Of a stretch of DNA of 64,000 nucleotides, positions 20,450-44,095 are shown one piece after another. Positions within the stretch are counted from its first letter, which is position 1; every line of letters begins with the position of its first letter. The notes beneath the pieces were generated by a model. It was not told the DNA's origin. It searched no databases and was given only the letters and a program-made list of their open reading frames with translations. A program made the position numbers and the translations under genes. The stretch covers positions 4,361,444-4,425,443 of the forward strand of contig NC_089863.1 of the NCBI RefSeq assembly GCF_036373705.1. Direction: 5' to 3'. The stretch comes from Amia ocellicauda. Lineage: Eukaryota; Chordata; Actinopteri; Amiiformes; Amiidae.

Positions 20450-20509
20450 ACCCTGTTCCAGGACAGAAGAAGCTGTTTCCATCGGATTGCTTGAGTGCGT
20501 CCAAACGTG

Positions 20510-20582
20510 GGGCCAGTGGCGCAATGGATAACGCGTCTGACTTCGAATCAGAAGACTGTAGGTTCGACTCCTACCTGGCTCG
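20510..20582 (+). tRNA. tRNA-Arg (TCG), unit 13
   Basis: Identical in fold to the ACG copies, but the wobble base is T, giving anticodon TCG at 20543-20545. Such a tRNA would read CGA and probably CGG rather than CGU/CGC/CGA. All identity-relevant pairs, A/B boxes and the TTTT stop (20609-20612) are kept. Confidence 0.94.
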
Positions 20583-21013
20583 ACAGCATCTACACCCAAC
20601 TCTCGCTGTTTTCTTCTCATATCTGGCGACCAGCAGCACTACATCATAGTGTGCCGGACCAGGCATGGGAGGACCATCAAAGTCACCGCTACCACACTCC
20701 AATCTCATTCCATGATGATTATCAAACCATTGCACCAGTGTGACTGAGGTGCAACATACATTCAATGTGTTCATGGCTCCATCTGCTCATTCAATTCAAC
20801 CTGTACCCGACTGCTGCCTCTCACCTGAACCGTAGTCAACAGAAATGCGCACTTGTATCACACCTTGTCGACACTGTTAATGTGTCATTGACACCCAATA
20901 ACCTGACATGTTGCTTAATCCGTTTAATCTCAATTCTTTCATAATAAGACTCTGTTACAATAAGACACTTCCACAACACTACATTCATTTGAATAGACAA
21001 TCACTTTTGAATA

Positions 21014-21238
21014 CAGTGTGGAGTAGTGGTTTGGGCTCTGTACCCTGTCGCACAGCACGGTGTGTGCAATCTCTGGTACACTTACTACTCTTGAGCAAGG
21101 GACTTTAGCTAGATTGCACCAGTTAATGCCCACCCATGCCAATGGGTTAAGTGTAAGGAAAACAAAATGTGGTAATATCTCGTTAACATCTGTAAGTCAC
21201 CCTGGCTTTGGTGTCTGCTAAGAAATCGAATTAAAAAA
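21014..21238 (+). mobile_element. SINE copy, unit 14
   Basis: Same site. The head has CCCTGTCGCAC and the tail CCCTGGCTTTGG, shared with units 18, 25 and 29. Confidence 0.68.
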
Positions 21239-21883
21239 TACGTTGATATGAATCTCCATTGATTTATTTCTGTGTTCAACATGTATAATTCATGTATTTA
21301 TTATTATCTTCTCTCTGCATTTATTTTTAATTCTGCCTTGGATTATCCTACATACATGTCGCACAAGTGAATGTACAATGCATTCTGGCCCTTCTCATCA
21401 CTACAACAAGCAAAGCCAAAATATGAAAGAGAAAGTGAGTTGAAAAGGTGAGGTGGTGTTTTTCTCTTTATATCTCTATTTACAGAGTAGACGAAATGCA
21501 GAGGAGGAAATATAAATAGAAAAGAAGAAAAAATGTCAACGAAGAACTGTAAAGGCACAGAGGGAAATGTGAACATAAAATTGGTATTACATACGGACAT
21601 ACGTTTTTTCTTAGATCTATGTAAAAATGTAATATTTTATAGCATAGAGCGAAGTAATATGAACTGATACAGAATATTAGATGAAGTCTAAATACATCTG
21701 TTTGTTCAAAACAGAATACACTGTATTGTTCTTGTTGTGAATACATTGGGGTGGATATATTTACGAATGGTATGGTGGTTGTGATCAAGAAGTGAAAAAT
21801 GACGACCCCTCGTATGCTTGTGAGGATCTCAGCAGGGCTGTCCTGCGGGCTGAAGACGGGTCTGGTAGCAGATGAAGGAGCTC

Positions 21884-21956
21884 TGGAGAATGCGGGCATC
21901 GGTCCCGCCACCTCTCGCATGCTAAGCGAGCGCTCTACCATCTGAGCTAATTCCCC
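21884..21956 (-). tRNA. tRNA-Ala (AGC), unit 14
   Basis: Full-length copy, anticodon AGC, C55. Confidence 0.87.
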
Positions 21957-22098
21957 GCTGCTTCCTGTGGCAGCACCGCCCTGTGCAGCGCCGGCTGCAG
22001 GTTCGCTCTGAACTTTGCATCCCTTTGGGTTCACTGATACCCTGTTCCAGGACAGAAGAAGCTGTTTCCATCGGATTGCTTGAGTGCGTCCAAACGTG

Positions 22099-22171
22099 GG
22101 GCCAGTGGCGCAATGGATAACGCGTCTGACTACGAATCAGAAGACTGTAGGTTCGACTCCTACCTGGCTCG
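22099..22171 (+). tRNA. tRNA-Arg (ACG), unit 14
   Basis: Intact gene; anticodon at 22132-22134, TTTT stop at 22198-22201. Confidence 0.95.
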
Positions 22172-22602
22172 ACAGCATCTACAACCAACTCTCACTGTTT
22201 TCTTCTCATATCTGGCGACCAGCAGCACTACATCATAGTGTGCCTGACCAGGCATGGGAGGACCATCAAAGTCACCGCTACCACACTCCAATCTCATTCC
22301 ATGATGATTATCAAACCATTGCACCAGTGTGACTGAGGTGCAACATACATTCAATGTCTTCATGGCTCCGTCTGCTCATTCAATTCAACCTGTACCCGAC
22401 TGCTGCCTCTCACCTGAAACGTAGTCAACAGAAATGCGCACTTGTATCACACCTTGTCGACACTGTTAATGTGTCATTGACACCCAATATCCTGACATGT
22501 TGCTTAATCCGTTTAATCTCAATTCTTTCATAATAAGACTCTGTTACAATAAGACACTTCCACAACACTACATTCATTTGAATAGACAATCACTTTTGAA
22601 TA

Positions 22603-22827
22603 CAGTGTGGAGTAGTGGTTTGGGCTCTGTACCCTGTAGCACAGCACGGTGTGTGCAATCTCTGGTACACTTACTACTCTTGAGCAAGGGACTTTAGCTA
22701 GATTGCACCAGTTAATGCCCACCCATGCCAATGGGTTAAGTGTAAGGAAAACAAAATGTGGTAATATCTCGTTAACATCTGTAAGTCACCCTGGCTATGG
22801 TGTCTGCTAAGAAATCGAATTAAAAAA
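22603..22827 (+). mobile_element. SINE copy, unit 15
   Basis: Same site and form as in unit 1. Confidence 0.68.
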
Positions 22828-23472
22828 TACGTTGATATGAATCTCCATTGATTTATTTCTGTGTTCAACATGTATAATTCATGTATTTATTATTATCTTC
22901 TCTCTGCATTTATTTTTAATTCTGCCTTGGATTATCCTCCATACATGTCGCACAAATGAATGTACAATGCATTCTGGCCCTTCTCATCACTACAACAAGC
23001 AAAGGCAAAATATGAAAGAGAACGTGAGTTGAAAAGGTGAGGTGGTGTTTTTCTCTTTATATCTCTATTTACAGAGTAGACGAAATGCAGAGGAGGAAAT
23101 ATAAATAGAAAAGAAGAAAAAATGTCAACGAAGAACTGTAAAGGCACAGAGGGAAATGTGAACATAAAATTGGTATTACATACGGACATACGTTTTTTCT
23201 TAGATCTATGTAAAAATGTAATATTTTATAGCATAGAGCGAAGTAATATGAACTGATACAGAATATTAGATGAAGTCTAAATACATCTGTTTGTTCAAAA
23301 CAGAATACACTGTATTGTTCTTGTTGTGAATACATTGGGGTGGATATATTTACGAATGGTATGGTGGTTGTGATCAAGAAGTGAAAAATGACGACCCCTC
23401 GTATGCTTGTGAGGATCTCAGCAGGGCTGTCCTGCGGGCTGAAGACGGGTCTGGTAGCAGATGAAGGAGCTC

Positions 23473-23545
23473 TGGAGAATGCGGGCATCGGTCCCGCCAC
23501 CTCTCGCATGCTAAGCGAGCGCTCTACCATCTGAGCTAATTCCCC
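23473..23545 (-). tRNA. tRNA-Ala (AGC), unit 15
   Basis: Full-length copy, anticodon AGC, C55. Confidence 0.87.
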
Positions 23546-23687
23546 GCTGCTTCCTGTGGCAGCACCGCCCTGTGCAGCGCCGGCTGCAGGTTCGCTCTGA
23601 ACTTTGCATCCCTTTGGGTTCACTGATACCCTGTTCCAGGACAGAAGAAGCTGTTTCCATCGGATTGATTGAGTGCGTCCAAACGTT

Positions 23688-23760
23688 GGGCCAGTGGCGC
23701 AATGGATAACGCGTCTGACTACGAATCAGAAGACTGTAGGTTCGACTCCTACCTGGCTCG
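23688..23760 (+). tRNA. tRNA-Arg (ACG), unit 15
   Basis: Intact gene with the unit-12 flank type; anticodon at 23721-23723, TTTT stop at 23787-23790. Confidence 0.95.
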
Positions 23761-24191
23761 AAAGCATCTACATCCAACTCTCGCTGTTTTCTTCTCATAT
23801 CTGGCGACCAGCAGCACTACATCATAGTGTGCCGGACCAGGCATGGGAGGACCATCAAAGTCACCGCTACCACACTCCAATCTCATTCCATGATGATTAT
23901 CAAACCATTGCACCAGTGTGACCGAGGTGCAACATACATTCAATGTGTTCATGGCTCCATCTGCTCATTCAATTCAACCTGTACCCGACTGCTGCCTCTC
24001 ACCTGAACCGTAGTCAACAGAAATGCGCACTTGTATCACACCTTGTCGACACTGTTAATGTGTCATTGACACCCAATAACCTGACATGTTGCTTAATCCG
24101 TTTAATCTCAATTCTTTCATAATAAGACTCTGTTACAATAAGACACTTCCACAACACTACATTCATTTGAATAGACAATCACTTTTGAATA

Positions 24192-24415
24192 CAGTGTGGA
24201 GTAGTGGTTTGGGCTCTGTACCCTGTAGCACAGCACGGTGTGTGCAATCTCTGGTACACTTACTACTCTTGAGCAAGGGACTTTAGCTAGATTGCACCAG
24301 TTAATGCCCACCCATGCCAATGGGTTAAGTGTAAGGAAAACAAAATGTGGTAATATCTCGTTAACATCTGTAAGTCACCCTGGCTTTGGTGTCTGCTAAG
24401 AAATCGAGTTAAAGA
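24192..24415 (+). mobile_element. SINE copy, unit 16
   Basis: Same site, unit-13 tail type, although the rest of the unit to the right is the ordinary form. Confidence 0.68.
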
Positions 24416-25060
24416 TACGTTGATATGAATCTCCATTGATTTATTTCTATGCTCAACATGTATAATTAATGTATATATTATTATCTTCTCTCTGCATTTA
24501 TTTTTAATTCTGCCTTGGATTATCCTCCATACATGTCGCACAAATGAATGTACAATGCATTCTGGCCCTTCTCATCACTACAACAAGCAAAGGCAAAATA
24601 TGAAAGAGAACGTGAGTTGAAAAGGTGAGGTGGTGTTTTTCTCTTTATATCTCTATTTACAGAGTAGACGAAATGCAGAGGAGGAAATATAAATAGAAAA
24701 GAAGAAAAAATGTCAACGAAGAACTGTAAAGGCACAGAGGGAAATGTGAACATAAAATTGGTATTACATACGGACATACGTTTTTTCTTAGATCTATGTA
24801 AAAATGTAATATTTTATAGCATAGAGCGAAGTAATATGAACTGATACAGAATATTAGATGAAGTCTAAATACATCTGTTTGTTCAAAACAGAATACACTG
24901 TATTGTTCTTGTTGTGAATACATTGGGGTGGATATATTTACGAATGGTATGGTGGTTGTGATCAAGAAGTGAAAAATGACGACCCCTCGTATGCTTGTGA
25001 GGATCTCAGCAGGGCTGTCCTGCGGGCTGAAGACGGGTCTGGTAGCAGATGAAGGAGCTC

Positions 25061-25133
25061 TGGAGAATGCGGGCATCGGTCCCGCCACCTCTCGCATGCT
25101 AAGCGAGCGCTCTACCATCTGAGCTAATTCCCC
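25061..25133 (-). tRNA. tRNA-Ala (AGC), unit 16
   Basis: Full-length copy, anticodon AGC, C55. It lies to the right of the inferred crossover junction in this recombinant unit. Confidence 0.87.
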
Positions 25134-25275
25134 GCTGCTTCCTGTGGCAGCACCGCCCTGTGCAGCGCCGGCTGCAGGTTCGCTCTGAACTTTGCATCCC
25201 TTTGGGTTCACTGATACCCTGTTCCAGGACAGAAGAAGCTGTTTCCATCGGATTGATTGAGTGCGTCCAAACGTT

Positions 25276-25348
25276 GGGCCAGTGGCGCAATGGATAACGC
25301 GTCTGACTACGAATCAGAAGACTGTAGGTTCGACTCCTACCTGGCTCG
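25276..25348 (+). tRNA. tRNA-Arg (ACG), unit 16
   Basis: Intact gene with the unit-12 flank type; anticodon at 25309-25311, TTTT stop at 25375-25378. Confidence 0.95.
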
Positions 25349-25779
25349 AAAGCATCTACATCCAACTCTCGCTGTTTTCTTCTCATATCTGGCGACCAGC
25401 AGCACTACATCATAGTGTGCCGGACCAGGCATGGGAGGACCATCAAAGTCACCGCTACCACACTCCAATCTCATTCCATGATGATTATCAAACCATTGCA
25501 CCAGTGTGACTGAGGTGCAACATACATTCAATGTGTTCATGGCTCCATCTGCTCATTCAATTCAACCTGTACCCGACTGCTGCCTCTCACCTGAACCGTA
25601 GTCAACAGAAATGCGCACTTGTATCACACCTTGTCGACACTGTTAATGTGTCATTGACACCCAATAACCTGACATGTTGCTTAATCCGTTTAATCTCAAT
25701 TCTTTCATAATAAGACTCTGTTACAATAAGACACTTCCACAACACTACATTCATTTGAATAGACAATCACTTTTGAATA

Positions 25780-26003
25780 CAGTGTGGAGTAGTGGTTTGG
25801 GCTCTGTACCCTGTAGCACAGCACGGTGTGTGCAATCTCTGGTACACTTACTACTCTTGAGCAAGGGACTTTAGCTAGATTGCACCAGTTAATGCCCACC
25901 CATGCCAATGGGTTAAGTGTAAGGAAAACAAAATGTGGTAATATCTCGTTAACATCTGTAAGTCACCCTGGCTTTGGTGTCTGCTAAGAAATCGAGTTAA
26001 AGA
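25780..26003 (+). mobile_element. SINE copy, unit 17
   Basis: Same site, unit-13 tail type. Confidence 0.68.
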
Positions 26004-26656
26004 TACGTTGATATGAATCTCCATTGATTTATTTCTATGCTCAACATGTATAATTAATGTATATATTATTATCTTCTCTCTGCATTTATTTTTAATTCTG
26101 CCTTGGATTATCCTCCATACATGATAGCCTGTCGCACAAATGAATGTACAATGCATTCTGGCCCTTTTTATCACTACAACAAGTAAAGCCAAAATATGAA
26201 AGAGAACGTGAGTTGAAAAGGTGAGGTGGTGTTTTTCTCTTTATATCTCTATTTACAGAGTAGACGAAATGCAGAGGAGGAAATATAAATAGAAAAGAAG
26301 AAAGAATGTCAACGAAGAACTGTAAATGCACAGAGGGAAATGTGAACATAAAATTGGTATTACATACGGACATACGTTTTTTCTTAGATCTATGTAAAAA
26401 TGTAATATTTTATAGCATAGAGCGAAGTAATATGAACTGATACAGAATATTTGATGAAGTCTAAATACATCTGTTTGTTCAAAACAGAATACACTGTATT
26501 GTTCTTGTTGTGAATACATTGGGGTGGATATATTTACGAATGGTATGGTGGTTGTGATCAAGAAGTGAAAAACGACGACCCCTCGTATGCTTGTGAGGAT
26601 CTCAGCAGGGCTGTCCTGCAGGCTGAAGACGGGTCTGGTAACAGATGAAGGAGCTC

Positions 26657-26724
26657 TGGAGAATGCGGGCATCGGTCCCGCCACCTATCGCATGCTAAGC
26701 GAGCGCTCTACCATCTGAGCTAAT
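26657..26724 (-). pseudogene. tRNA-Ala (AGC) truncated by the 87-bp deletion, unit 17
   Basis: Same deletion junction and same G43T change as unit 13; the 5' acceptor strand is missing. Confidence 0.85.
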
Positions 26725-26784
26725 ACCCTGTTCCAGGACAGAAGAAGCTGTTTCCATCGGATTGCTTGAGTGCGTCCAAACGTG

Positions 26785-26857
26785 GGGCCAGTGGCGCAAT
26801 GGATAACGCGTCTGACTTCGAATCAGAAGACTGTAGGTTCGACTCCTACCTGGCTCG
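26785..26857 (+). tRNA. tRNA-Arg (TCG), unit 17
   Basis: Anticodon TCG at 26818-26820; otherwise intact, TTTT stop at 26884-26887. Confidence 0.94.
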
Positions 26858-27288
26858 ACAGCATCTACACCCAACTCTCGCTGTTTTCTTCTCATATCTG
26901 GCGACCAGCAGCACTACATCATAGTGTGCCGGACCAGGCATGGGAGGACCATCAAAGTCACCGCTACCACACTCCAATCTCATTCCATGATGATTATCAA
27001 ACCATTGCACCAGTGTGACTGAGGTGCAACATACATTCAATGTGTTCATGGCTCCATCTGCTCATTCAATTCAACCTGTACCCGACTGCTGCCTCTCACC
27101 TGAACCGTAGTCAACAGAAATGCGCACTTGTATCACACCTTGTCGACACTGTTAATGTGTCATTGACACCCAATAACCTGACATGTTGCTTAATCCGTTT
27201 AATCTCAATTCTTTCATAATAAGACTCTGTTACAATAAGACACTTCCACAACACTACATTCATTTGAATAGACAATCACTTTTGAATA

Positions 27289-27513
27289 CAGTGTGGAGTA
27301 GTGGTTTGGGCTCTGTACCCTGTCGCACAGCACGGTGTGTGCAATCTCTGGTACACTTACTACTCTTGAGCAAGGGACTTTAGCTAGATTGCACCAGTTA
27401 ATGCCCACCCATGCCAATGGGTTAAGTGTAAGGAAAACAAAATGTGGTAATATCTCGTTAACATCTGTAAGTCACCCTGGCTTTGGTGTCTGCTAAGAAA
27501 TCGAATTAAAAAA
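27289..27513 (+). mobile_element. SINE copy, unit 18
   Basis: Same site, unit-14 head and tail variants. Confidence 0.68.
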
Positions 27514-28158
27514 TACGTTGATATGAATCTCCATTGATTTATTTCTGTGTTCAACATGTATAATTCATGTATTTATTATTATCTTCTCTCTGCATTTATT
27601 TTTAATTCTGCCTTGGATTATCCTACATACATGTCGCACAAGTGAATGTACAATGCATTCTGGCCCTTCTCATCACTACAACAAGCAAAGCCAAAATATG
27701 AAAGAGAAAGTGAGTTGAAAAGGTGAGGTGGTGTTTTTCTCTTTATATCTCTATTTACAGAGTAGACGAAATGCAGAGGAGGAAATATAAATAGAAAAGA
27801 AGAAAAAATGTCAACGAAGAACTGTAAAGGCACAGAGGGAAATGTGAACATAAAATTGGTATTACATACGGACATACGTTTTTTCTTAGATCTATGTAAA
27901 AATGTAATATTTTATAGCATAGAGCGAAGTAATATGAACTGATACAGAATATTAGATGAAGTCTAAATACATCTGTTTGTTCAAAACAGAATACACTGTA
28001 TTGTTCTTGTTGTGAATACATTGGGGTGGATATATTTACGAATGGTATGGTGGTTGTGATCAAGAAGTGAAAAATGACGACCCCTCGTATGCTTGTGAGG
28101 ATCTCAGCAGGGCTGTCCTGCGGGCTGAAGACGGGTCTGGTAGCAGATGAAGGAGCTC

Positions 28159-28231
28159 TGGAGAATGCGGGCATCGGTCCCGCCACCTCTCGCATGCTAA
28201 GCGAGCGCTCTACCATCTGAGCTAATTCCCC
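28159..28231 (-). tRNA. tRNA-Ala (AGC), unit 18
   Basis: Full-length copy, anticodon AGC, C55. Confidence 0.87.
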
Positions 28232-28373
28232 GCTGCTTCCTGTGGCAGCACCGCCCTGTGCAGCGCCGGCTGCAGGTTCGCTCTGAACTTTGCATCCCTT
28301 TGGGTTCACTGATACCCTGTTCCAGGACAGAAGAAGCTGTTTCCATCGGATTGCTTGAGTGCGTCCAAACGTG

Positions 28374-28446
28374 GGGCCAGTGGCGCAATGGATAACGCGT
28401 CTGACTACGAATCAGAAGACTGTAGGTTCGACTCCTACCTGGCTCG
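28374..28446 (+). tRNA. tRNA-Arg (ACG), unit 18
   Basis: Intact gene; anticodon at 28407-28409, TTTT stop at 28473-28476. Confidence 0.95.
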
Positions 28447-28877
28447 ACAGCATCTACAACCAACTCTCACTGTTTTCTTCTCATATCTGGCGACCAGCAG
28501 CACTACATCATAGTGTGCCTGACCAGGCATGGGAGGACCATCAAAGTCACCGCTACCACACTCCAATCTCATTCCATGATGATTATCAAACCATTGCACC
28601 AGTGTGACTGAGGTGCAACATACATTCAATGTCTTCATGGCTCCGTCTGCTCATTCAATTCAACCTGTACCCGACTGCTGCCTCTCACCTGAAACGTAGT
28701 CAACAGAAATGCGCACTTGTATCACACCTTGTCGACACTGTTAATGTGTCATTGACACCCAATATCCTGACATGTTGCTTAATCCGTTTAATCTCAATTC
28801 TTTCATAATAAGACTCTGTTACAATAAGACACTTCCACAACACTACATTCATTTGAATAGACAATCACTTTTGAATA

Positions 28878-29102
28878 CAGTGTGGAGTAGTGGTTTGGGC
28901 TCTGTACCCTGTAGCACAGCACGGTGTGTGCAATCTCTGGTACACTTACTACTCTTGAGCAAGGGACTTTAGCTAGATTGCACCAGTTAATGCCCACCCA
29001 TGCCAATGGGTTAAGTGTAAGGAAAACAAAATGTGGTAATATCTCGTTAACATCTGTAAGTCACCCTGGCTATGGTGTCTGCTAAGAAATCGAATTAAAA
29101 AA
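28878..29102 (+). mobile_element. SINE copy, unit 19
   Basis: Same site and form as in unit 1. Confidence 0.68.
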
Positions 29103-29747
29103 TACGTTGATATGAATCTCCATTGATTTATTTCTGTGTTCAACATGTATAATTCATGTATTTATTATTATCTTCTCTCTGCATTTATTTTTAATTCTGC
29201 CTTGGATTATCCTCCATACATGTCGCACAAATGAATGTACAATGCATTCTGGCCCTTCTCATCACTACAACAAGCAAAGGCAAAATATGAAAGAGAACGT
29301 GAGTTGAAAAGGTGAGGTGGTGTTTTTCTCTTTATATCTCTATTTACAGAGTAGACGAAATGCAGAGGAGGAAATATAAATAGAAAAGAAGAAAAAATGT
29401 CAACGAAGAACTGTAAAGGCACAGAGGGAAATGTGAACATAAAATTGGTATTACATACGGACATACGTTTTTTCTTAGATCTATGTAAAAATGTAATATT
29501 TTATAGCATAGAGCGAAGTAATATGAACTGATACAGAATATTAGATGAAGTCTAAATACATCTGTTTGTTCAAAACAGAATACACTGTATTGTTCTTGTT
29601 GTGAATACATTGGGGTGGATATATTTACGAATGGTATGGTGGTTGTGATCAAGAAGTGAAAAATGACGACCCCTCGTATGCTTGTGAGGATCTCAGCAGG
29701 GCTGTCCTGCGGGCTGAAGACGGGTCTGGTAGCAGATGAAGGAGCTC

Positions 29748-29820
29748 TGGAGAATGCGGGCATCGGTCCCGCCACCTCTCGCATGCTAAGCGAGCGCTCT
29801 ACCATCTGAGCTAATTCCCC
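29748..29820 (-). tRNA. tRNA-Ala (AGC), unit 19
   Basis: Full-length copy, anticodon AGC, C55. Confidence 0.87.
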
Positions 29821-29962
29821 GCTGCTTCCTGTGGCAGCACCGCCCTGTGCAGCGCCGGCTGCAGGTTCGCTCTGAACTTTGCATCCCTTTGGGTTCACTG
29901 ATACCCTGTTCCAGGACAGAAGAAGCTGTTTCCATCGGATTGATTGAGTGCGTCCAAACGTT

Positions 29963-30035
29963 GGGCCAGTGGCGCAATGGATAACGCGTCTGACTACGAA
30001 TCAGAAGACTGTAGGTTCGACTCCTACCTGGCTCG
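29963..30035 (+). tRNA. tRNA-Arg (ACG), unit 19
   Basis: Intact gene with the unit-12 flank type; anticodon at 29996-29998, TTTT stop at 30062-30065. Confidence 0.95.
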
Positions 30036-30466
30036 AAAGCATCTACATCCAACTCTCGCTGTTTTCTTCTCATATCTGGCGACCAGCAGCACTACATCAT
30101 AGTGTGCCGGACCAGGCATGGGAGGACCATCAAAGTCACCGCTACCACACTCCAATCTCATTCCATGATGATTATCAAACCATTGCACCAGTGTGACCGA
30201 GGTGCAACATACATTCAATGTGTTCATGGCTCCATCTGCTCATTCAATTCAACCTGTACCCGACTGCTGCCTCTCACCTGAACCGTAGTCAACAGAAATG
30301 CGCACTTGTATCACACCTTGTCGACACTGTTAATGTGTCATTGACACCCAATAACCTGACATGTTGCTTAATCCGTTTAATCTCAATTCTTTCATAATAA
30401 GACTCTGTTACAATAAGACACTTCCACAACACTACATTCATTTGAATAGACAATCACTTTTGAATA

Positions 30467-30690
30467 CAGTGTGGAGTAGTGGTTTGGGCTCTGTACCCTG
30501 TAGCACAGCACGGTGTGTGCAATCTCTGGTACACTTACTACTCTTGAGCAAGGGACTTTAGCTAGATTGCACCAGTTAATGCCCACCCATGCCAATGGGT
30601 TAAGTGTAAGGAAAACAAAATGTGGTAATATCTCGTTAACATCTGTAAGTCACCCTGGCTTTGGTGTCTGCTAAGAAATCGAGTTAAAGA
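30467..30690 (+). mobile_element. SINE copy, unit 20
   Basis: Same site, unit-13 tail type. Confidence 0.68.
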
Positions 30691-31343
30691 TACGTTGATA
30701 TGAATCTCCATTGATTTATTTCTATGCTCAACATGTATAATTAATGTATATATTATTATCTTCTCTCTGCATTTATTTTTAATTCTGCCTTGGATTATCC
30801 TCCATACATGATAGCCTGTCGCACAAATGAATGTACAATGCATTCTGGCCCTTTTTATCACTACAACAAGTAAAGCCAAAATATGAAAGAGAACGTGAGT
30901 TGAAAAGGTGAGGTGGTGTTTTTCTCTTTATATCTCTATTTACAGAGTAGACGAAATGCAGAGGAGGAAATATAAATAGAAAAGAAGAAAGAATGTCAAC
31001 GAAGAACTGTAAATGCACAGAGGGAAATGTGAACATAAAATTGGTATTACATACGGACATACGTTTTTTCTTAGATCTATGTAAAAATGTAATATTTTAT
31101 AGCATAGAGCGAAGTAATATGAACTGATACAGAATATTTGATGAAGTCTAAATACATCTGTTTGTTCAAAACAGAATACACTGTATTGTTCTTGTTGTGA
31201 ATACATTGGGGTGGATATATTTACGAATGGTATGGTGGTTGTGATCAAGAAGTGAAAAACGACGACCCCTCGTATGCTTGTGAGGATCTCAGCAGGGCTG
31301 TCCTGCAGGCTGAAGACGGGTCTGGTAACAGATGAAGGAGCTC

Positions 31344-31411
31344 TGGAGAATGCGGGCATCGGTCCCGCCACCTATCGCATGCTAAGCGAGCGCTCTACCA
31401 TCTGAGCTAAT
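31344..31411 (-). pseudogene. tRNA-Ala (AGC) truncated by the 87-bp deletion, unit 20
   Basis: Same deletion and G43T change as units 13 and 17. Confidence 0.85.
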
Positions 31412-31471
31412 ACCCTGTTCCAGGACAGAAGAAGCTGTTTCCATCGGATTGCTTGAGTGCGTCCAAACGTG

Positions 31472-31544
31472 GGGCCAGTGGCGCAATGGATAACGCGTCT
31501 GACTTCGAATCAGAAGACTGTAGGTTCGACTCCTACCTGGCTCG
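31472..31544 (+). tRNA. tRNA-Arg (TCG), unit 20
   Basis: Anticodon TCG at 31505-31507; otherwise intact, TTTT stop at 31571-31574. Confidence 0.94.
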
Positions 31545-33133: not shown

Positions 33134-33564
33134 ACAGCATCTACACCCAACTCTCGCTGTTTTCTTCTCATATCTGGCGACCAGCAGCACTACATCATAG
33201 TGTGCCGGACCAGGCATGGGAGGACCATCAAAGTCACCGCTACCACACTCCAATCTCATTCCATGATGATTATCAAACCATTGCACCAGTGTGACTGAGG
33301 TGCAACATACATTCAATGTGTTCATGGCTCCATCTGCTCATTCAATTCAACCTGTACCCGACTGCTGCCTCTCACCTGAACGGTAGTCAACAGAAATGCG
33401 CACTTGTATCACACCTTGTCGACACTGTTAATGTGTCATTGACACCCAATAACCTGACATGTTGCTTAATCCGTTTAATCTCAATTCTTTCATAGTAAGA
33501 CTCTGTTACAATAAGACACTTCCACAACACTACATTCATTTGAATAGACAATCACTTTTGAATA

Positions 33565-33789
33565 CAGTGTGGAGTAGTGGTTTGGGCTCTGTACCCTGTC
33601 GCAGAGCACGGTGTGTGCAATCCCTGGTTCGCTGACTACTCTTGAGCAAGGGACTTTAGCTAGATTGCACCAGTTAATGCCCACCCATGCCAATGGGTTA
33701 AGTGTAAGGAAAACAAAATGTGGTAATATCTCGTTAACATCTGTAATTTACCCTGGCTTTGGTGTCTGCTAAGAAATCGAATTAAAAAA
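33565..33789 (+). mobile_element. Divergent SINE copy, unit 22
   Basis: Same site but with clustered differences. The end of the head reads AATCCCTGGTTCGCTGAC (four changes in about 12 bases), and the tail reads CTGTAATTTACCCTGG. Shared only with unit 40. Confidence 0.68.
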
Positions 33790-34434
33790 TACTTTGATAT
33801 GAATCTCCATTGATTTATTTCTATGTTCAACATGTATAATTCATGTATTTATTATTATCTTCTCTCTGCATTTATTTTTAATTCTGCCTTGGATTATCCT
33901 ACATACATGTCGCACAAGTGAATGTACAATGCATTCTGGCCCTTCTCATCACTACAACAAGCAAAGCCAAAATATGAAAGAGAAAGTGAGTTGAAAAGGT
34001 GAGGTGGTGTTTTTCTCTTTATATCTCTATTTACAGAGTAGACGAAATGCAGAGGAGGAAATATAAATAGAAAAGAAGAAAAAATGTCAACGAAGAACTG
34101 TAAATGCACAGAGGGAAATGTGAACATAAAATTGGTATTACATACGGACATACGTTTTTTCTTAGATCTATGTAAAAATGTAATATTTTATAGCATAGAG
34201 CGAAGTAATATGAACTGATACAGAATATTTGATGAAGTCTAAATACATCTGTTTGTTCAAAACAGAATACACTGTATTGTTCTTGTTGTGAATACATTGG
34301 GGTGGATATATTTACGAATGGTATGGTGGTTGTGATCAAGAAGTGAAAAATGACGACCCCTCGTATGCTTGGGAGGATCTCAGCAGGGCTGTCCTGCGGG
34401 CTGAAGACGGGTCTGATAGCAGATGAAGGAGCTC

Positions 34435-34507
34435 TGGAGAATGCGGGCATCGGTCCCGCCACCTCTCGCATGCTAAGCGAGCGCTCTACCATCTGAGCTA
34501 ATTCCCC
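34435..34507 (-). tRNA. tRNA-Ala (AGC), unit 22
   Basis: Full-length copy, anticodon AGC, C55. The trailer flank has variants shared with unit 40. Confidence 0.87.
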
Positions 34508-34649
34508 GCTGCTTCCTGTGGCAGCACCGCCCTGTGCAGCGCCGGCTGCAGGTTCGCTCTGAACTTTGCATCCCTTTGGGTTCACTGATACCCTGTTCCA
34601 GGACAGAAGAAGCTGTTTCCATCGGATTGCTTGACTGCATCTAAACGTG

Positions 34650-34722
34650 GGGCCAGTGGCGCAATGGATAACGCGTCTGACTACGAATCAGAAGACTGTA
34701 GGTTCGACTCCTACCTGGCTCG
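34650..34722 (+). tRNA. tRNA-Arg (ACG), unit 22
   Basis: Intact gene with three private substitutions in its immediate 5' flank (34635-34643); anticodon at 34683-34685, TTTT stop at 34749-34752. Confidence 0.95.
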
Positions 34723-35153
34723 ACAGCATCTACAACCAACTCTCGCTGTTTTCTTCTCATATCTGGCGACCAGCAGCACTACATCATAGTGTGCCGGACC
34801 AGGCATGGGAGGACCATCAAAGTCACCGCTACCACACTCCAATCTCATTCCATGATGATTATCAAACCATTGCACCAGTGTGACTGAGGTGCAACATACA
34901 TTCAATGTGTTCATGGCTCCATCTGCTCATTCAATTCAACCTGTACCCGACTGCTGCCTCTCACCTGAAACGTAGTCAGCAGAAATGCGCACTTGTATCA
35001 CACCTTGTCGACACTGTTAATGTGTCATTGACACCCAATAACCTGACATGTTGCTTTATCCGTTTAATCTCAATTCTTTCATAATAAGACTCTGTTACAA
35101 TAAGACACTTCCACAACACTACATTCATTTGAATAGACAATCACTTTTGAATA

Positions 35154-35378
35154 CAGTGTGGAGTAGTGGTTTGGGCTCTGTACCCTGTAGCACAGCACGG
35201 TGTGTGCAATCTCTGGTACACTTACTACTCTTGAGCAAGGGACTTTAGCTAGATTGCACCAGTTAATGCCCACCCATGCCAATGGGTTAAGTGTAAGGAA
35301 AACAAAATGTGGTAATATCTCGTTAACATCTGTAAGTCACCCTGGCTTTGGTGTCTGCTAAGAAATCGAATTAAAAAA
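35154..35378 (+). mobile_element. SINE copy, unit 23
   Basis: Same site; tail CCCTGGCTTTGG. Confidence 0.68.
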
Positions 35379-36023
35379 TACGTTGATATGAATCTCCATT
35401 GATTTATTTCTGTGTTCAACATGTATAATTCATGTATTTATTATTATCTTCTCTCTGCATTTATTTTTAATTCTGCCTTGGATTATCCTACATACATGTC
35501 GCACAAGTGAATGTACAATGCATTCTGGCCCTTCTCATCACTACAACAAGCAAAGCCAAAATATGAAAGAGAAAGTGAGTTGAAAAGGTGAGGTGGTGTT
35601 TTTCTCTTTATATCTCTATTTACAGAGTAGACGAAATGCAGAGGAGGAAATATAAATAGAAAAGAAGAAAAAATGTCAACGAAGAACTGTAAATGCACAG
35701 AGGGAAATGTGAACATAAAATTGGTATTACATACGGACATACGTTTTTTCTTAGATCTATGTAAAAATGTAATATTTTATAGCATAGAGCGAAGTAATAT
35801 GAACTGATACAGAATATTTGATGAAGTCTAAATACATCTGTTTGTTCAAAACAGAATACACTGTATTGTTCTTGTTGTGAATACATTGGGGTGGATATAT
35901 TTACGAATGGTATGGTGGTTGTGATCAAGAAGTGAAAAATGACGACCCCTCGTATGCTTGTGAGGATCTCAGCAGGGCTGTCCTGCGGGCTGAAGACGGG
36001 TCTGGTAGCAGATGAAGGAGCTC

Positions 36024-36091
36024 TGGAGAATGCGGGCATCGGTCCCGCCACCTCTCGCATGCTAAGCGAGCGCTCTACCATCTGAGCTAAT
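36024..36091 (-). pseudogene. tRNA-Ala (AGC) truncated by the 87-bp deletion, unit 23
   Basis: Same deletion junction as unit 13, but position 43 is still G, so only the acceptor arm is damaged. Confidence 0.83.
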
Positions 36092-36151
36092 ACCCTGTTC
36101 CAGGACAGAAGAAGCTGTTTCCATCGGATTGCTTGAGTGCGTCCAAACGTG

Positions 36152-36224
36152 GGGCCAGTGGCGCAATGGATAACGCGTCTGACTTCGAATCAGAAGACTG
36201 TAGGTTCGACTCCTACCTGGCTCG
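36152..36224 (+). tRNA. tRNA-Arg (TCG), unit 23
   Basis: Anticodon TCG at 36185-36187; otherwise intact, TTTT stop at 36251-36254. Confidence 0.94.
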
Positions 36225-36655
36225 ACAGCATCTACACCCAACTCTCGCTGTTTTCTTCTCATATCTGGCGACCAGCAGCACTACATCATAGTGTGCCGGA
36301 CCAGGCATGGGAGGACCATCAAAGTCACCGCTACCACACTCCAATCTCATTCCATGATGATTATCAAACCATTGCACCAGTGTGACTGAGGTGCAACATA
36401 CATTCAATGTGTTCATGGCTCCATCTGCTCATTCAATTCAACCTGTACCCGACTGCTGCCTCTCACCTGAACCGTAGTCAACAGAAATGCGCACTTGTAT
36501 CACACCTTGTCGACACTGTTAATGTGTTTTTGACACCCAATATCCTGACATGTTGCTTAATCCGTTTAATCTCAATTCTTTCATAATAAGACTCTGTTAC
36601 AATAAGACACTTCCACAAAACTACATTCATTTGAACAGATAATCACTTTTGAATA

Positions 36656-36879
36656 CAGTGTGGAGTAGTGGTTTGGGCTCTGTACCCTGTAGCACAGCAC
36701 GGTGTGTGCAATCTCTGGTACACTTACTACTCTTGAGCAAGGGACTTTAGCTAGATTGCACCAGTTAATGCCCACCCATGCCAATGGGTTAAGTGTAAGG
36801 AAAACAAAATGTGGTAATATCTCGTTAACATCTGTAAGTCACCCTGGCTTTGGTGTCTGCTAAGAAATCGAGTTAAAGA
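36656..36879 (+). mobile_element. SINE copy, unit 24
   Basis: Same site, unit-13 tail type. Confidence 0.68.
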
Positions 36880-37532
36880 TACGTTGATATGAATCTCCAT
36901 TGATTTATTTCTATGCTCAACATGTATAATTAATGTATATATTATTATCTTCTCTCTGCATTTATTTTTAATTCTGCCTTGGATTATCCTCCATACATGA
37001 TAGCCTGTCGCACAAATGAATGTACAATGCATTCTGGCCCTTCTCATCACTACAACAGGCAAAGCCAAAATATGAAAGAGAACGTGAGTTGAAAAGGTGA
37101 GGTGGTGTTTTTCTCTTTATATCTCTATTTACAGAGTAGACGAAATGCAGAGGAGGAAATATAAATAGGAAAGAAGAAAAAATGTCAACGAAGAACTGTA
37201 AATGCACAGAGGGAAATGTGAACATAAAATTGGTATTACATACGGACATACGCTTTTTCTTAGATCTATGTAAAAATGTAATATTTTATAGCATAGAGCG
37301 AAGTAATATGAACTGATACAGAATATTTGAAGAAGTCTAAATACATCTGTTTGTTCAAAACAGAATACACTGTATTGTTCTTGTTGTGAATACATTGGGG
37401 TGGATATATTTACGAATGGTATGGTGGTTGTGATCAAGAAGTGAAAAACGACGACCCCTCGTATGCTTGTGAGGATCTCAGCAGGGCTGTCCTGCGGGCT
37501 GAAGACGGGTCTGGTAGCAGATGAAGGAGCTC

Positions 37533-37605
37533 TGGAGAATGCGGGCATCGGTCCCGCCACCTCTCGCATGCTAAGCGAGCGCTCTACCATCTGAGCTAAT
37601 TCCCC
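37533..37605 (-). tRNA. tRNA-Ala (AGC), unit 24
   Basis: Full-length copy, anticodon AGC, C55. It is a complete tRNA-Ala paired with a TCG-type tRNA-Arg. Confidence 0.87.
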
Positions 37606-37747
37606 GCTGCTTCCTGTGGCAGCACCGCCCTGTGCAGCGCCGGCTGCAGGTTCGCTCTGAACTTTGCATCCCTTTGGGTGCACTGATACCCTGTTCCAGG
37701 ACAGAAGAAGCTGTTTCCATCGGATTGCTTGAGTGCGTCCAAACGTG

Positions 37748-37820
37748 GGGCCAGTGGCGCAATGGATAACGCGTCTGACTTCGAATCAGAAGACTGTAGG
37801 TTCGACTCCTACCTGGCTCG
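37748..37820 (+). tRNA. tRNA-Arg (TCG), unit 24
   Basis: Anticodon TCG at 37781-37783; otherwise intact, TTTT stop at 37847-37850. Confidence 0.94.
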
Positions 37821-38251
37821 ACAGCATCTACACCCAACTCTCGCTGTTTTCTTCTCATATCTGGCGACCAGCAGCACTACATCATAGTGTGCCGGACCAG
37901 GCATGGGAGGACCATCAAAGTCACCGCTACCACACTCCAATCTCATTCCATGATGATTATCAAACCATTGCACCAGTGTGACTGAGGTGCAACATACATT
38001 CAATGTGTTCATGGCTCCATCTGCTCATTCAATTCAACCTGTACCCGACTGCTGCCTCTCACCTGAACCGTAGTCAACAGAAATGCGCACTTGTATCACA
38101 CCTTGTCGACACTGTTAATGTGTCATTGACACCCAATAACCTGACATGTTGCTTAATCCGTTTAATCTCAATTCTTTCATAATAAGACTCTGTTACAATA
38201 AGACACTTCCACAACACTACATTCATTTGAATAGACAATCACTTTTGAATA

Positions 38252-38476
38252 CAGTGTGGAGTAGTGGTTTGGGCTCTGTACCCTGTCGCACAGCACGGTG
38301 TGTGCAATCTCTGGTACACTTACTACTCTTGAGCAAGGGACTTTAGCTAGATTGCACCAGTTAATGCCCACCCATGCCAATGGGTTAAGTGTAAGGAAAA
38401 CAAAATGTGGTAATATCTCGTTAACATCTGTAAGTCACCCTGGCTTTGGTGTCTGCTAAGAAATCGAATTAAAAAA
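38252..38476 (+). mobile_element. SINE copy, unit 25
   Basis: Same site, unit-14 head and tail variants. Confidence 0.68.
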
Positions 38477-39121
38477 TACGTTGATATGAATCTCCATTGA
38501 TTTATTTCTATGTTCAACATGTATAATTCATGTATTTATTATTATCTTCTCTCTGCATTTATTTTTAATTCTGCCTTGGATTATCCTACATACATGTCGC
38601 ACAAGTGAATGTACAATGCATTCTGGCCCTTCTCATCACTACAACAAGCAAAGGCAAAATATGAAAGAGAACGTGAGTTGAAAAGGTGAGGTGGTGTTTT
38701 TCTCTTTATATCTCTATTTACAGAGTAGACGAAATGCAGAGGAGGAAATATAAATAGAAAAGAAGAAAAAATGTCAACGAAGAACTGTAAATGCACAGAG
38801 GGAAATGTGAACATAAAATTGGTATTACATACGGACATACGTTTTTTCTTAGATCTATGTAAAAATGTAATATTTTATAGCATAGAGCGAAGTAATATGA
38901 ACTGATACAGAATATTTGATGAAGTCTAAATACATCTGTTTGTTCAAAACAGAATACACTGTATTGTTCTTGTTGTGAATACATTGGGGTGGATATATTT
39001 ACGAATGGTATGGTGGTTGTGATCAAGAAGTGAAAAATGACGACCCCTCGTATGCTTGTGAGGATCTCAGCAGGGCTGTCCTGCGGGCTGAAGACGGGTC
39101 TGGTAGCAGATGAAGGAGCTC

Positions 39122-39194
39122 TGGAGAATGCGGGCATCGGTCCCGCCACCTCTCGCATGCTAAGCGAGCGCTCTACCATCTGAGCTAATTCCCC
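39122..39194 (-). tRNA. tRNA-Ala (AGC), unit 25
   Basis: Full-length copy, anticodon AGC, C55. Confidence 0.87.
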
Positions 39195-39336
39195 GCTGCT
39201 TCCTGTGGCAGCACCGCCCTGTGCAGCGCCGGCTGCAGGTTCGCTCTGAACTTTGCATCCCTTTGGGTTCACTGATACCCTGTTCCAGGACAGAAGAAGC
39301 AGTTTCCATCGGATTGCTTGAGTGCGTCCAAACGTG

Positions 39337-39409
39337 GGGCCAGTGGCGCAATGGATAACGCGTCTGACTACGAATCAGAAGACTGTAGGTTCGACTCCTA
39401 CCTGGCTCG
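39337..39409 (+). tRNA. tRNA-Arg (ACG), unit 25
   Basis: Intact gene; anticodon at 39370-39372, TTTT stop at 39436-39439. Confidence 0.95.
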
Positions 39410-39840
39410 ACAGCATCTACACCCAACTCTCGCTGTTTTCTTCTCATATCTGGCGACCAGCAGCACTACATCATAGTGTGCCGGACCAGGCATGGGAGGA
39501 CCATCAAAGTCACCGCTACCACACTCCAATCTCATTCCATGATGATTATCAAACCATTGCACCAGTGTGACTGAGGTGCAACATACATTCAATGTGTTCA
39601 TGGCTCCATCTGCTCATTCAATTCAACCTGTACCCGACTGCTGCCTCTCACCTGAACCGTAGTCAACAGAAATGCGCACTTGTATCACACCTTGTCGACA
39701 CTGTTAATGTGTTTTTGACACCCAATATCCTGACATGTTGCTTAATCCGTTTAATCTCAATTCTTTCATAATAAGACTCTGTTACAATAAGACACTTCCA
39801 CAAAACTACATTCATTTGAACAGATAATCACTTTTGAATA

Positions 39841-40064
39841 CAGTGTGGAGTAGTGGTTTGGGCTCTGTACCCTGTAGCACAGCACGGTGTGTGCAATCTC
39901 TGGTACACTTACTACTCTTGAGCAAGGGACTTTAGCTAGATTGCACCAGTTAATGCCCACCCATGCCAATGGGTTAAGTGTAAGGAAAACAAAATGTGGT
40001 AATATCTCGTTAACATCTGTAAGTCACCCTGGCTTTGGTGTCTGCTAAGAAATCGAGTTAAAGA
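39841..40064 (+). mobile_element. SINE copy, unit 26
   Basis: Same site, unit-13 tail type, while the right part of the unit is the ordinary form. Confidence 0.68.
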
Positions 40065-40709
40065 TACGTTGATATGAATCTCCATTGATTTATTTCTATG
40101 CTCAACATGTATAATTAATGTATTTATTATTATCTTCTCTCTGCATTTATTTTTAATTCTGCCTTGGATTATCCTCCATACATGTCGCACAAATGAATGT
40201 ACAATGCATTCTGGCCCTTCTCATCACTACAACAAGCAAAGGCAAAATATGAAAGAGAACGTGAGTTGAAAAGGTGAGGTGGTGTTTTTCTCTTTATATC
40301 TCTATTTACAGAGTAGACGAAATGCAGAGGAGGAAATATAAATAGAAAAGAAGAAAAAATGTCAACGAAGAACTGTAAAGGCACAGAGGGAAATGTGAAC
40401 ATAAAATTGGTATTACATACGGACATACGTTTTTTCTTAGATCTATGTAAAAATGTAATATTTTATAGCATAGAGCGAAGTAATATGAACTGATACAGAA
40501 TATTAGATGAAGTCTAAATACATCTGTTTGTTCAAAACAGAATACACTGTATTGTTCTTGTTGTGAATACATTGGGGTGGATATATTTACGAATGGTATG
40601 GTGGTTGTGATCAAGAAGTGAAAAATGACGACCCCTCGTATGCTTGTGAGGATCTCAGCAGGGCTGTCCTGCGGGCTGACGACGGGTCTGGTAGCAGATG
40701 AAGGAGCTC

Positions 40710-40782
40710 TGGAGAATGCGGGCATCGGTCCCGCCACCTCTCGCATGCTAAGCGAGCGCTCTACCATCTGAGCTAATTCCCC
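40710..40782 (-). tRNA. tRNA-Ala (AGC), unit 26
   Basis: Full-length copy, anticodon AGC, C55. Confidence 0.87.
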
Positions 40783-40924
40783 GCTGCTTCCTGTGGCAGC
40801 ACCGCCCTGTGCAGCGCCGGCTGCAGGTTCGCTCTGAACTTTGCATCCCTTTGGGTTCACTGATACCCTGTTCCAGGACAGAAGAAGCTGTTTCCATCGG
40901 ATTGCTTGAGTGCGTCCAAACGTG

Positions 40925-40997
40925 GGGCCAGTGGCGCAATGCATAACGCGTCTGACTACGAATCAGAAGACTGTAGGTTCGACTCCTACCTGGCTCG
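40925..40997 (+). tRNA. tRNA-Arg (ACG), unit 26, G19C variant
   Basis: The fold is complete and the anticodon is ACG (40958-40960). The invariant D-loop pair GG is changed to GC at 40942 (G19C). That removes the G19:C56 tertiary contact that holds the elbow together and also alters the A box, so this copy is probably poor or inactive. TTTT stop at 41024-41027. Confidence 0.85.
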
Positions 40998-41428
40998 ACA
41001 GCATCTACAACCAACTCTCACTGTTTTCTTCTCATATCTGGCGACCAGCAACACTACATCATAGTGTGCCGGACCAGGCATGGGAGGACCATCAAAGTCA
41101 CCGCTACCACACTCCAATCTCATTCCATGATGATTATCAAACCATTGCACCAGTGTGACTGAGGTGCAACATACATTCAATGTCTTCATGGCTCCATCTG
41201 CTCATTCAATTCAACCTGTACCCGACTGCTGCCTCTCACCTGAAACGTAGTCAACAGAAATGCGCACTTGTATCACACCTTGTCGACACTGTTAATGTGT
41301 CATTGACACCCAATATCCTGACATGTTGCTTAATCCGTTTAATCTCAATTCTTTCATAATAAGACTCTGTTACAATAAGACACTTCCACAACACTACATT
41401 CATTTGAATAGACAATCACTTTTGAATA

Positions 41429-41653
41429 CAGTGTGGAGTAGTGGTTTGGGCTCTGTACCCTGTAGCACAGCACGGTGTGTGCAATCTCTGGTACACTTAC
41501 TACTCTTGAGCAAGGGACTTTAGCTAGATTGCACCAGTTAATGCCCACCCATGCCAATGGGTTAAGTGTAAGGAAAACAAAATGTGGTAATATCTCGTTA
41601 ACATCTGTAAGTCACCCTGGCTATGGTGTCTGCTAAGAAATCGAATTAAAAAA
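41429..41653 (+). mobile_element. SINE copy, unit 27
   Basis: Same site and form as in unit 1. Confidence 0.68.
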
Positions 41654-42298
41654 TACGTTGATATGAATCTCCATTGATTTATTTCTGTGTTCAACATGTA
41701 TAATTCATGTATTTATTATTATCTTCTCTCTGCATTTATTTTTAATTCTGCCTTGGATTATCCTCCATACATGTCGCACAAGTGAATGTACAATGCATTC
41801 TGGCCCTTCTCATCACTACAACAGGCAAAGCCAAAATATGAAAGAGAAAGTGAGTTGAAAAGGTGAGGTGGTGTTTTTCTCTTTATATCTCTATTTACAG
41901 AGTAGACGAAATGCAGAGGAGGAAATATAAATAGGAAAGAAGAAAAAATGTCAACGAAGAACTGTAAATGCACAGAGGGAAATGTGAACATAAAATTGGT
42001 ATTACATACGGACATACGCTTTTTCTTAGATCTATGTAAAAATGTAATATTTTATAGCATAGAGCGAAGTAATATGAACTGATACAGAATATTTGAAGAA
42101 GTCTAAATACATCTGTTTGTTCAAAACAGAATACACTGTATTGTTCTTGTTGTGAATACATTGGGGTGGATATATTTACGAATGGTATGGTGGTTGTGAT
42201 CAAGAAGTGAAAAATGACGACCCCTCGTATGCTTGTGAGGATCTCAGCAGGGCTGTCCTGCGGGCTGAAAACGGGTCTGGTAGCAGATGAAGGAGCTC

Positions 42299-42366
42299 TG
42301 GAGAATGCGGGCATCGGTCCCGCCACCTCTCGCATGCTAAGCGAGCGCTCTACCATCTGAGCTAAT
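42299..42366 (-). pseudogene. tRNA-Ala (AGC) truncated by the 87-bp deletion, unit 27
   Basis: Same deletion junction as unit 23, with G43 kept; the 5' acceptor strand is missing. Confidence 0.83.
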
Positions 42367-42426
42367 ACCCTGTTCCAGGACAGAAGAAGCTGTTTCCATC
42401 GGATTGCTTGAGTGCGTCCAAACGTG

Positions 42427-42499
42427 GGGCCAGTGGCGCAATGGATAACGCGTCTGACTTCGAATCAGAAGACTGTAGGTTCGACTCCTACCTGGCTCG
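42427..42499 (+). tRNA. tRNA-Arg (TCG), unit 27
   Basis: Anticodon TCG at 42460-42462; otherwise intact, TTTT stop at 42526-42529. Confidence 0.94.
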
Positions 42500-42930
42500 A
42501 CAGCATCTACACCCAACTCTCGCTGTTTTCTTCTCATATCTGGCGACCAGCAGCACTACATCATAGTGTGCCGGACCAGGCATGGGAGGACCATCAAAGT
42601 CACCGCTACCACACTCCAATCTCATTCCATGATGATTATCAAACCATTGCACCAGTGTGACTGAGGTGCAACATACATTCAATGTGTTCATGGCTCCATC
42701 TGCTCATTCAATTCAACCTGTACCCGACTGCTGCCTCTCACCTGAACCGTAGTCAACAGAAATGCGCACTTGTATCACACCTTGTCGACACTGTTAATGT
42801 GTTTTTGACACCCAATATCCTGACATGTTGCTTAATCCGTTTAATCTCAATTCTTTCATAATAAGACTCTGTTACAATAAGACACTTCCACAAAACTACA
42901 TTCATTTGAACAGATAATCACTTTTGAATA

Positions 42931-43154
42931 CAGTGTGGAGTAGTGGTTTGGGCTCTGTACCCTGTAGCACAGCACGGTGTGTGCAATCTCTGGTACACTT
43001 ACTACTCTTGAGCAAGGGACTTTAGCTAGATTGCACCAGTTAATGCCCACCCATGCCAATGGGTTAAGTGTAAGGAAAACAAAATGTGGTAATATCTCGT
43101 TAACATCTGTAAGTCACCCTGGCTTTGGTGTCTGCTAAGAAATCGAGTTAACGA
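42931..43154 (+). mobile_element. SINE copy, unit 28
   Basis: Same site; close to the unit-13 tail type with one further change (GTTAACGATA). Confidence 0.68.
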
Positions 43155-43807
43155 TATGTTGATATGAATCTCCATTGATTTATTTCTATGCTCAACATGT
43201 ATAATTAATGTATATATTATTATCTTCTCTCTGCATTTATTTTTAATTCTGCCTTGGATTATCCTCCATACATGATAGCCTGTCGCACAAATGAATGTAC
43301 AATGCATTCTGGCCCTTCTCATCACTACAACAGGCAAAGCCAAAATATGAAAGAGAACGTGAGTTGAAAAGGTGAGGTGGTGTTTTTCTCTTTATATCTC
43401 TATTTACAGAGTAGACGAAATGCAGAGGAGGAAATATAAATAGGAAAGAAGAAAAAATGTCAACGAAGAACTGTAAATGCACAGAGGGAAATGTGAACAT
43501 AAAATTGGTATTACATACGGACATACGCTTTTTCTTAGATCTATGTAAAAATGTAATATTTTATAGCATAGAGCGAAGTAATATGAACTGATACAGAATA
43601 TTTGAAGAAGTCTAAATACATCTGTTTGTTCAAAACAGAATACACTGTATTGTTCTTGTTGTGAATACATTGGGGTGGATATATTTACGAATGGTATGGT
43701 GGTTGTGATCAAGAAGTGAAAAACGACGACCCCTCGTATGCTTGTGAGGATCTCAGCAGGGCTGTCCTGCGGGCTGAAGACGGGTCTGGTAGCAGATGAA
43801 GGAGCTC

Positions 43808-43880
43808 TGGAGAATGCGGGCATCGGTCCCGCCACCTCTCGCATGCTAAGCGAGCGCTCTACCATCTGAGCTAATTCCCC
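43808..43880 (-). tRNA. tRNA-Ala (AGC), unit 28
   Basis: Full-length copy, anticodon AGC, C55; counterpart of unit 24. Confidence 0.87.
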
Positions 43881-44022
43881 GCTGCTTCCTGTGGCAGCAC
43901 CGCCCTGTGCAGCGCCGGCTGCAGGTTCGCTCTGAACTTTGCATCCCTTTGGGTGCACTGATACCCTGTTCCAGGACAGAAGAAGCTGTTTCCATCGGAT
44001 TGCTTGAGTGCGTCCAAACGTG

Positions 44023-44095
44023 GGGCCAGTGGCGCAATGGATAACGCGTCTGACTTCGAATCAGAAGACTGTAGGTTCGACTCCTACCTGGCTCG
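44023..44095 (+). tRNA. tRNA-Arg (TCG), unit 28
   Basis: Anticodon TCG at 44056-44058; otherwise intact, TTTT stop at 44122-44125. Confidence 0.94.

Follow-up and report, generated by a model that had tools for sequence, protein, structure and literature searches.

Can the anticodon of a transfer RNA (tRNA) gene change inside a tandem array and then multiply with the repeat unit? The question is raised by a 64,000-nucleotide stretch of the Amia ocellicauda genome (G000:C20:4361444-4425443), hereafter the window, which lies inside a longer tandem array in an assembly of 988 megabases (Mb) and 385 contigs. The array fills the window from 1 to 64000 in units mostly of 1589 base pairs (bp), with 40 tRNA-Arg and 40 tRNA-Ala genes. 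Each of the 40 units holds a tRNA-Ala(AGC) gene on the minus strand and a tRNA-Arg gene on the plus strand, in divergent orientation with their 5′ ends facing. Seven of the 40 tRNA-Arg genes (units 13, 17, 20, 23, 24, 27, and 28) carry the anticodon TCG in place of ACG.

The TCG genes lie on the plus strand at 20510..20582 (unit 13), 26785..26857 (unit 17), 31472..31544 (unit 20), 36152..36224 (unit 23), 37748..37820 (unit 24), 42427..42499 (unit 27), and 44023..44095 (unit 28). In all seven, the sole difference from the common ACG copy is adenine to thymine at position 34 (A34T), while the other 72 of the 73 bases are equal. Thus, the description in the first-pass annotation, of seven TCG units with the body of the ACG copies and with C35 and G36 kept, was accurate on both counts. 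Under the standard code the old and the new anticodon both specify arginine, C35 and G36 being unchanged. When the stretch 14000-58000 was scanned with Rfam, each TCG gene scored 66.5 bits as compared to 63.7 bits for the unmutated ACG gene. The A box and B box, compared with the consensus of these promoter elements, are unaltered in the seven genes, and a TTTT run begins 27 bases downstream of the Arg gene in 38 of the 40 units, including all seven with TCG. This run is broken (GTTTC) behind the Arg genes of unit 2 (at 3101) and unit 9 (at 14234), where no other four-T run was found within 400 bases of the gene; as judged from the sequence, both copies may be without a terminator. Changes in the body occur in three of the 33 ACG copies in the window, namely a G-to-C change within the D loop of unit 26 (40925), a T-to-A change at base 48 of unit 34 (53557), and two inserted bases ahead of the T loop of unit 35 (55146).

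A comparison with the canonical TCG genes of the species had been set in advance, together with a genome-wide search for canonical genes sharing the array body. No such gene was found, and the body was different in 27 of 27 cases, which bears out a switch in situ. The exact canonical TCG arm occurs in 27 genome copies, 16 at C20:24.96-25.26 Mb, 10 on contig C47, and 1 on C4. Differences from the switched gene amount to 19 to 22 of the 73 positions in 26 of these copies and to 35 in the C4 copy, which is degenerate and is recognized as a tRNA neither by ARAGORN nor by Rfam at its cut-off. The switched gene differs at 1 position from the array ACG gene, at 2 from the ACG gene on C2, and at 7 from the isolated ACG gene on C9.

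An exact genome-wide search with a 34-base core, which passes over mutated copies, returned 39 copies with TCG and A37, 172 with ACG and A37, 11 with ACG and G37, and none with TCG and G37. The TCG copies are distributed over C20 (24), C136 (10), and C231 (5), and make up 39 of the 211 exact A37 copies (18.5%), as compared to 7 of 40 in the window. The matches listed comprise 139 of these 211 copies, the 39 with TCG and 100 with ACG, and the latter all fall in the C20 array. The 11 ACG genes with G37 lie outside the array (8 on C2, 2 on C4, and 1 on C9); eight match the array gene except at base 37, and three differ in the T arm too. Because the C2 and isolated ACG genes have the array body, these sequences lead us to conclude that the anticodon switch arose in the array body and that ACG is ancestral, a polarity judged by paralogs of one genome.

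The same comparison exposed a second change, overlooked by the first-pass annotation: all 40 Arg genes in the window (1512-63165) have A37. Since G37 beside G36 is the usual site of 1-methylguanosine (m1G37), the array tRNA may, given A37, also be different in modification. The distribution of both changes suggests that G37A came first, in all array copies read, and was followed by A34T in one unit.

Flanking sequences were used to trace the origin of the switch. We compared 94 of the 96 units from the window, C231, and C136, the last two contigs partly duplicating C20 and their units not being independent. The two units left out were a TCG unit at the end of C231, with too little downstream sequence, and an ACG copy on C136 that misfits the longer pattern. 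All 25 TCG units in the comparison combine 34T with +86C and +96G. Between -62 and +113 from the gene start, 23 of the 25 are identical, and the other two have one extra change at +82. Ten ACG units also carry +86C and +96G, plus one further difference at -36, and because of these units A34T probably arose on a +86C/+96G ACG background.

Many of the TCG units also share an 87-bp deletion that reaches into the neighboring tRNA-Ala gene. Its ends have 2 bp (AT) in common, its placement is ambiguous by two bases, and the Ala-Arg spacer measures 55 bp in deleted units versus 142 bp in the others. The deletion turns the first five bases of tRNA-Ala from GGGGA into AGGGT and leaves a gene of full length. 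In the window, the altered genes lie on the minus strand at 20382..20454 (unit 13), 26657..26729 (unit 17), 31344..31416 (unit 20), 36024..36096 (unit 23), and 42299..42371 (unit 27); the Ala partners in units 24 and 28 are intact. Thus, the earlier statement that five of the seven TCG units carry a truncated tRNA-Ala stands as to the number and fails as to the truncation, the 5′ end being replaced rather than lost. Units 23 and 27 have the deletion only and score 42.3 bits with Rfam, as compared to 53.2 bits for the intact gene. The score falls to 38.4 bits with one further base change, which lies in the anticodon stem in unit 13, and the copies of units 17 and 20, with two mismatches, score the same as that of unit 13. 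The altered gene keeps G3-U70, the main alanine identity element. However, pair 1-72 becomes A-C, pair 5-68 becomes U-U, and in the predicted fold of the lone strand the acceptor stem is no longer closed. As modeled, the deletion would therefore harm the predicted tRNA-Ala. ARAGORN called 40 Arg and 36 Ala genes in the window, and the Ala genes absent from its calls (units 13, 17, 20, and 35) were recovered by blastn. Downstream of tRNA-Ala, the first run of at least four Ts begins 86 bases away in 39 of the 40 units, giving a long trailer.

Among the 94 units, all 17 with the deletion were TCG, none of the 69 ACG units was deleted, and 8 of the 25 TCG units were undeleted; the TCG unit at the C231 end, outside the 94, is deleted as well. 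The 17 deleted units have the flank haplotype common to the TCG units. Read from these sequences, the simplest origin of the deletion is on a unit that already had TCG. With about 90 bp between A34T and the deletion, plain linkage is enough to explain why the two travel together.

How, then, did one switched unit become many? Within the window, blocks of several units recur at lags of 3, 4, and 7 units. A mean pair of units differs at 18.2 positions (39 of the 40 units, unit 40 being cut by the window end), whereas units 1-3 differ from units 8-10 by 0, 0, and 1, units 12-14 from 16-18 by 1, 0, and 0, and units 23-24 from 27-28 by 3 and 1. Whole-unit differences also separate C20 from the two contigs that resemble it. 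C231:12701-31975 matches C20 at 99.938% over 19,275 bp, ungapped, and C231:10000-11876 is a 100% match to a C20 stretch holding the same TCG unit; because both C231 stretches match one and the same TCG unit of C20, C231 counts two TCG units here against a single one on C20. C136 matches window positions 37683-47213 at 99.97% over 9531 bp, and another part of it matches at 99.71% over 17,023 bp. Its TCG order resembles that of C20, with no counterpart of unit 24, one extra unit between its first and second TCG units, and one fewer in a later interval. Set beside C20, C136 and C231 have the look of alternative alleles in which entire units are present or absent, in the style of unequal exchange. 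The shared haplotype, the block repeats, and the whole-unit differences together support the earlier suggestion that the switch spread by unequal exchange, the mechanism itself being inferred.

These results suggest the following course of events. An Ala/Arg array was built around the usual ACG body with G37A in every copy read, as the comparison within the genome shows, and one unit with +86C and +96G then gained A34T, as its haplotype shows. On a TCG unit, an 87-bp deletion with 2-bp microhomology would have altered the start of the adjoining tRNA-Ala, a step for which the association is observed and the order reconstructed. Unequal exchange and multi-unit duplication would have raised the assembled TCG copies to 39; here the repeats and the copy-number differences are observed and the mechanism is the presumed part. 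For the building of the array, the gain of A34T, and the amplification, we consider it very likely that an anticodon shifted between isoacceptor classes and was then multiplied by turnover of the tandem array. A last step would lead to function. Because the internal promoter boxes and the TTTT run are intact, RNA polymerase III could transcribe the switched genes into a tRNA-Arg(UCG) that would be charged with arginine and read CGA and CGG without the A34-to-inosine edit. For this step as a whole, we judge the chances to be evenly balanced.

Several observations weigh against this account. In a maximum likelihood tree of the 462-base core, the 25 TCG units come together only in a clade of 31 members, which includes 6 ACG units and has a support of 19, so that the tree by itself leaves a single origin unshown and flank haplotypes were used instead. 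We attribute the mixed clade to few informative sites and recombination. The whole-unit differences between contigs may have an assembly cause, and the number of copies counted is tied to the assembly, in which C136 and C231 resemble second versions of C20 stretches; the 39 TCG copies are therefore not a count per haploid genome (24 are on C20). Last, a test for constraint on the genes within the array had no significant outcome: 5 of 145 columns vary in genes (3/73 Arg and 2/72 Ala) and 90 of 1444 in flanks, so that gene variability is not significantly lower (p = 0.20, 39 of the 40 units).

The lack of a significant difference between genes and flanks is also what would be expected if A34T were a neutral passenger in a silent or highly redundant array, without effect on translation and brought to about 18% by random turnover. 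This alternative competes with the functional step only, and we give it a substantial chance, somewhat short of even. It would fit the spread of the linked deletion in spite of its predicted harm to tRNA-Ala, and the portion of PMC4981973 available to us argues that most recent remolding events are found in non-functional copies. It fits less well with the intact promoter boxes and terminator of the seven TCG genes in the window, or with an array gene of 73 bases that is one base off the C2 cluster gene in surroundings that are at most weakly alike. Zebrafish, whose maternally deposited tRNAs are encoded in highly repetitive regions according to the accessible part of PMC11417395, likewise speaks against a silent array.

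Other alternatives concern the origin of the T. It could have been supplied by a gene-conversion patch from the canonical TCG array at C20:24.96-25.26 Mb instead of by point mutation, as this donor lies on the same contig and bases 24 to 36 are identical between both genes in most copies. However, the switched genes keep the C23 and A37 of the array where the donors have G23 and G37, which restricts the tract to at most 13 bases, and a single substitution is simpler; we therefore regard conversion as improbable. An assembly or sequencing artefact, which might be suspected from the 200-N gap in the array and from the two unplaced contigs that duplicate parts of it, is hardly credible given 39 exact copies across three contigs and 25 fully compared TCG units on one linked haplotype, with flanks unlike the main ACG haplotype and 17 of them also deleted. 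The reverse polarity, with TCG ancestral for the array body and ACG derived, was rejected as extremely unlikely: all 11 G37 copies outside the array are ACG, the exact search found no G37 copy with TCG, and nothing was found in its favor.

The switched gene keeps A20, C35, and G36, which are arginine identity elements, and its product is predicted to be charged with arginine; it would read CGA and CGG. In zebrafish, isodecoders of the egg and early embryo are encoded in highly repetitive regions, and scattered genes supply the ones whose level increases later, as reported in the available part of PMC11417395; a second study describes, in the part at hand, maternal and zygotic tRNA pools as distinct with no better fit to codon content (PMC11574265). 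If zebrafish guides, the array copies would by analogy be of the egg and early-embryo type. They do lie in a repeat cluster, with 40 units in the window and 211 exact A37 copies genome-wide, and three copies of the body, on C4 and C9, are isolated ACG genes outside clusters of the array kind. A looser arm pattern combined with a normal D arm gave 24 copies with TCG, each of them either near 25 Mb on C20 or on C47, and a 3-mismatch pattern gave no TCG copy outside these two places. Thus, the arm-pattern searches showed no isolated TCG gene, although one that has an intron or a different D arm would escape them. The switched copies number 39 as compared to 27 TCG genes with the exact canonical arm plus at least five with an imperfect arm, alleles being possibly counted twice in both sets (C136 and C231; possibly C47). 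We consider it rather unlikely, and still worth stating, that at some stage, probably in the egg, tRNA-Arg(UCG) is supplied chiefly by the switched genes. If true, array turnover would be a quick genetic dial on the balance between inosine-reading and U34-reading arginine tRNAs, and the chromosomes of a single animal would differ in copy number.

Beyond the window, C20 has its first exact ACG copy, among the matches listed, at 4347076 and its last TCG copy at 4576488. A 200-N assembly gap at 5214..5413 falls outside the TCG units. On the left of the gap, a stretch of 5213 bases matches part of the unplaced contig C136 at 100% identity, and the gap may join two haplotypes, with the scaffold switching between them there. 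The divergent pair of tRNA-Ala(AGC) and tRNA-Arg is found in three clusters: that of the window, a second on C20 and C47 (L010, L015, L026, and L030), and a third on C2 (L036, L037, L040, and L043). L025, of the second cluster, is without an Ala call. The idea that the three clusters are copies of one unit found no support, as in the eight loci compared the matches end at or soon after the tRNA genes. The exception is an alignment of 348 bases at 69% with the C2 cluster, running from Ala through the spacer into Arg, and weak old homology between the window array and the C2 cluster may underlie it. Within the canonical TCG array, L065 and L075 (C20:25034136 and C20:25194567) have the anticodon TTG and are called tRNA-Gln by ARAGORN, possibly an alloacceptor change on an Arg body, to judge by sequence.

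Comparable clusters and repeats are known. As far as the available text of PMC2888827 and PMC11417395 goes, the tRNA clusters of teleosts and the maternal repeats of zebrafish are likewise long and bring together numerous tRNA genes of more than one kind. Nearly all tRNA pairs in Danio are parallel according to the former, whereas the array described here consists of divergent Ala/Arg pairs. The tRNA arrays of Entamoeba, in the part of PMC2652664 at hand, are also built of tandem units that hold two or more tRNA genes. They have short tandem repeats between the genes, whereas Tandem Repeats Finder, run with periods up to 500, reported no short tandem repeats in the window.

The switch itself is of a known kind, an isoacceptor anticodon shift or isoacceptor remolding. 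It resembles the cases in the accessible portions of PMC3923123 and PMC4981973 in that a single wobble-base substitution leaves the body in place and the same amino acid is expected; here the ordinary TCG genes, moreover, have a different body. A literature search, limited to partly available texts, found neither an Arg ACG/TCG shift nor an amplified shift in a tRNA gene array, their absence from print being unproven. As the available parts of the two studies describe them, the published comparisons deal with syntenic orthologs across species. In contrast, one shift is present here in 39 assembled copies within a tandem array, in numbers that vary from one assembly version to another. Comparisons of species usually reveal such shifts once they are complete, whereas this one seems to have been caught in progress within one genome. 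The unusual part is one shift amplified to dozens of copies, in an array where the haplotype of origin, the deletion that hitch-hiked along, and the differences in copy number can still be read. If the switched genes are expressed, tandem-array turnover could change decoding capacity quickly and leave isolated genes untouched.

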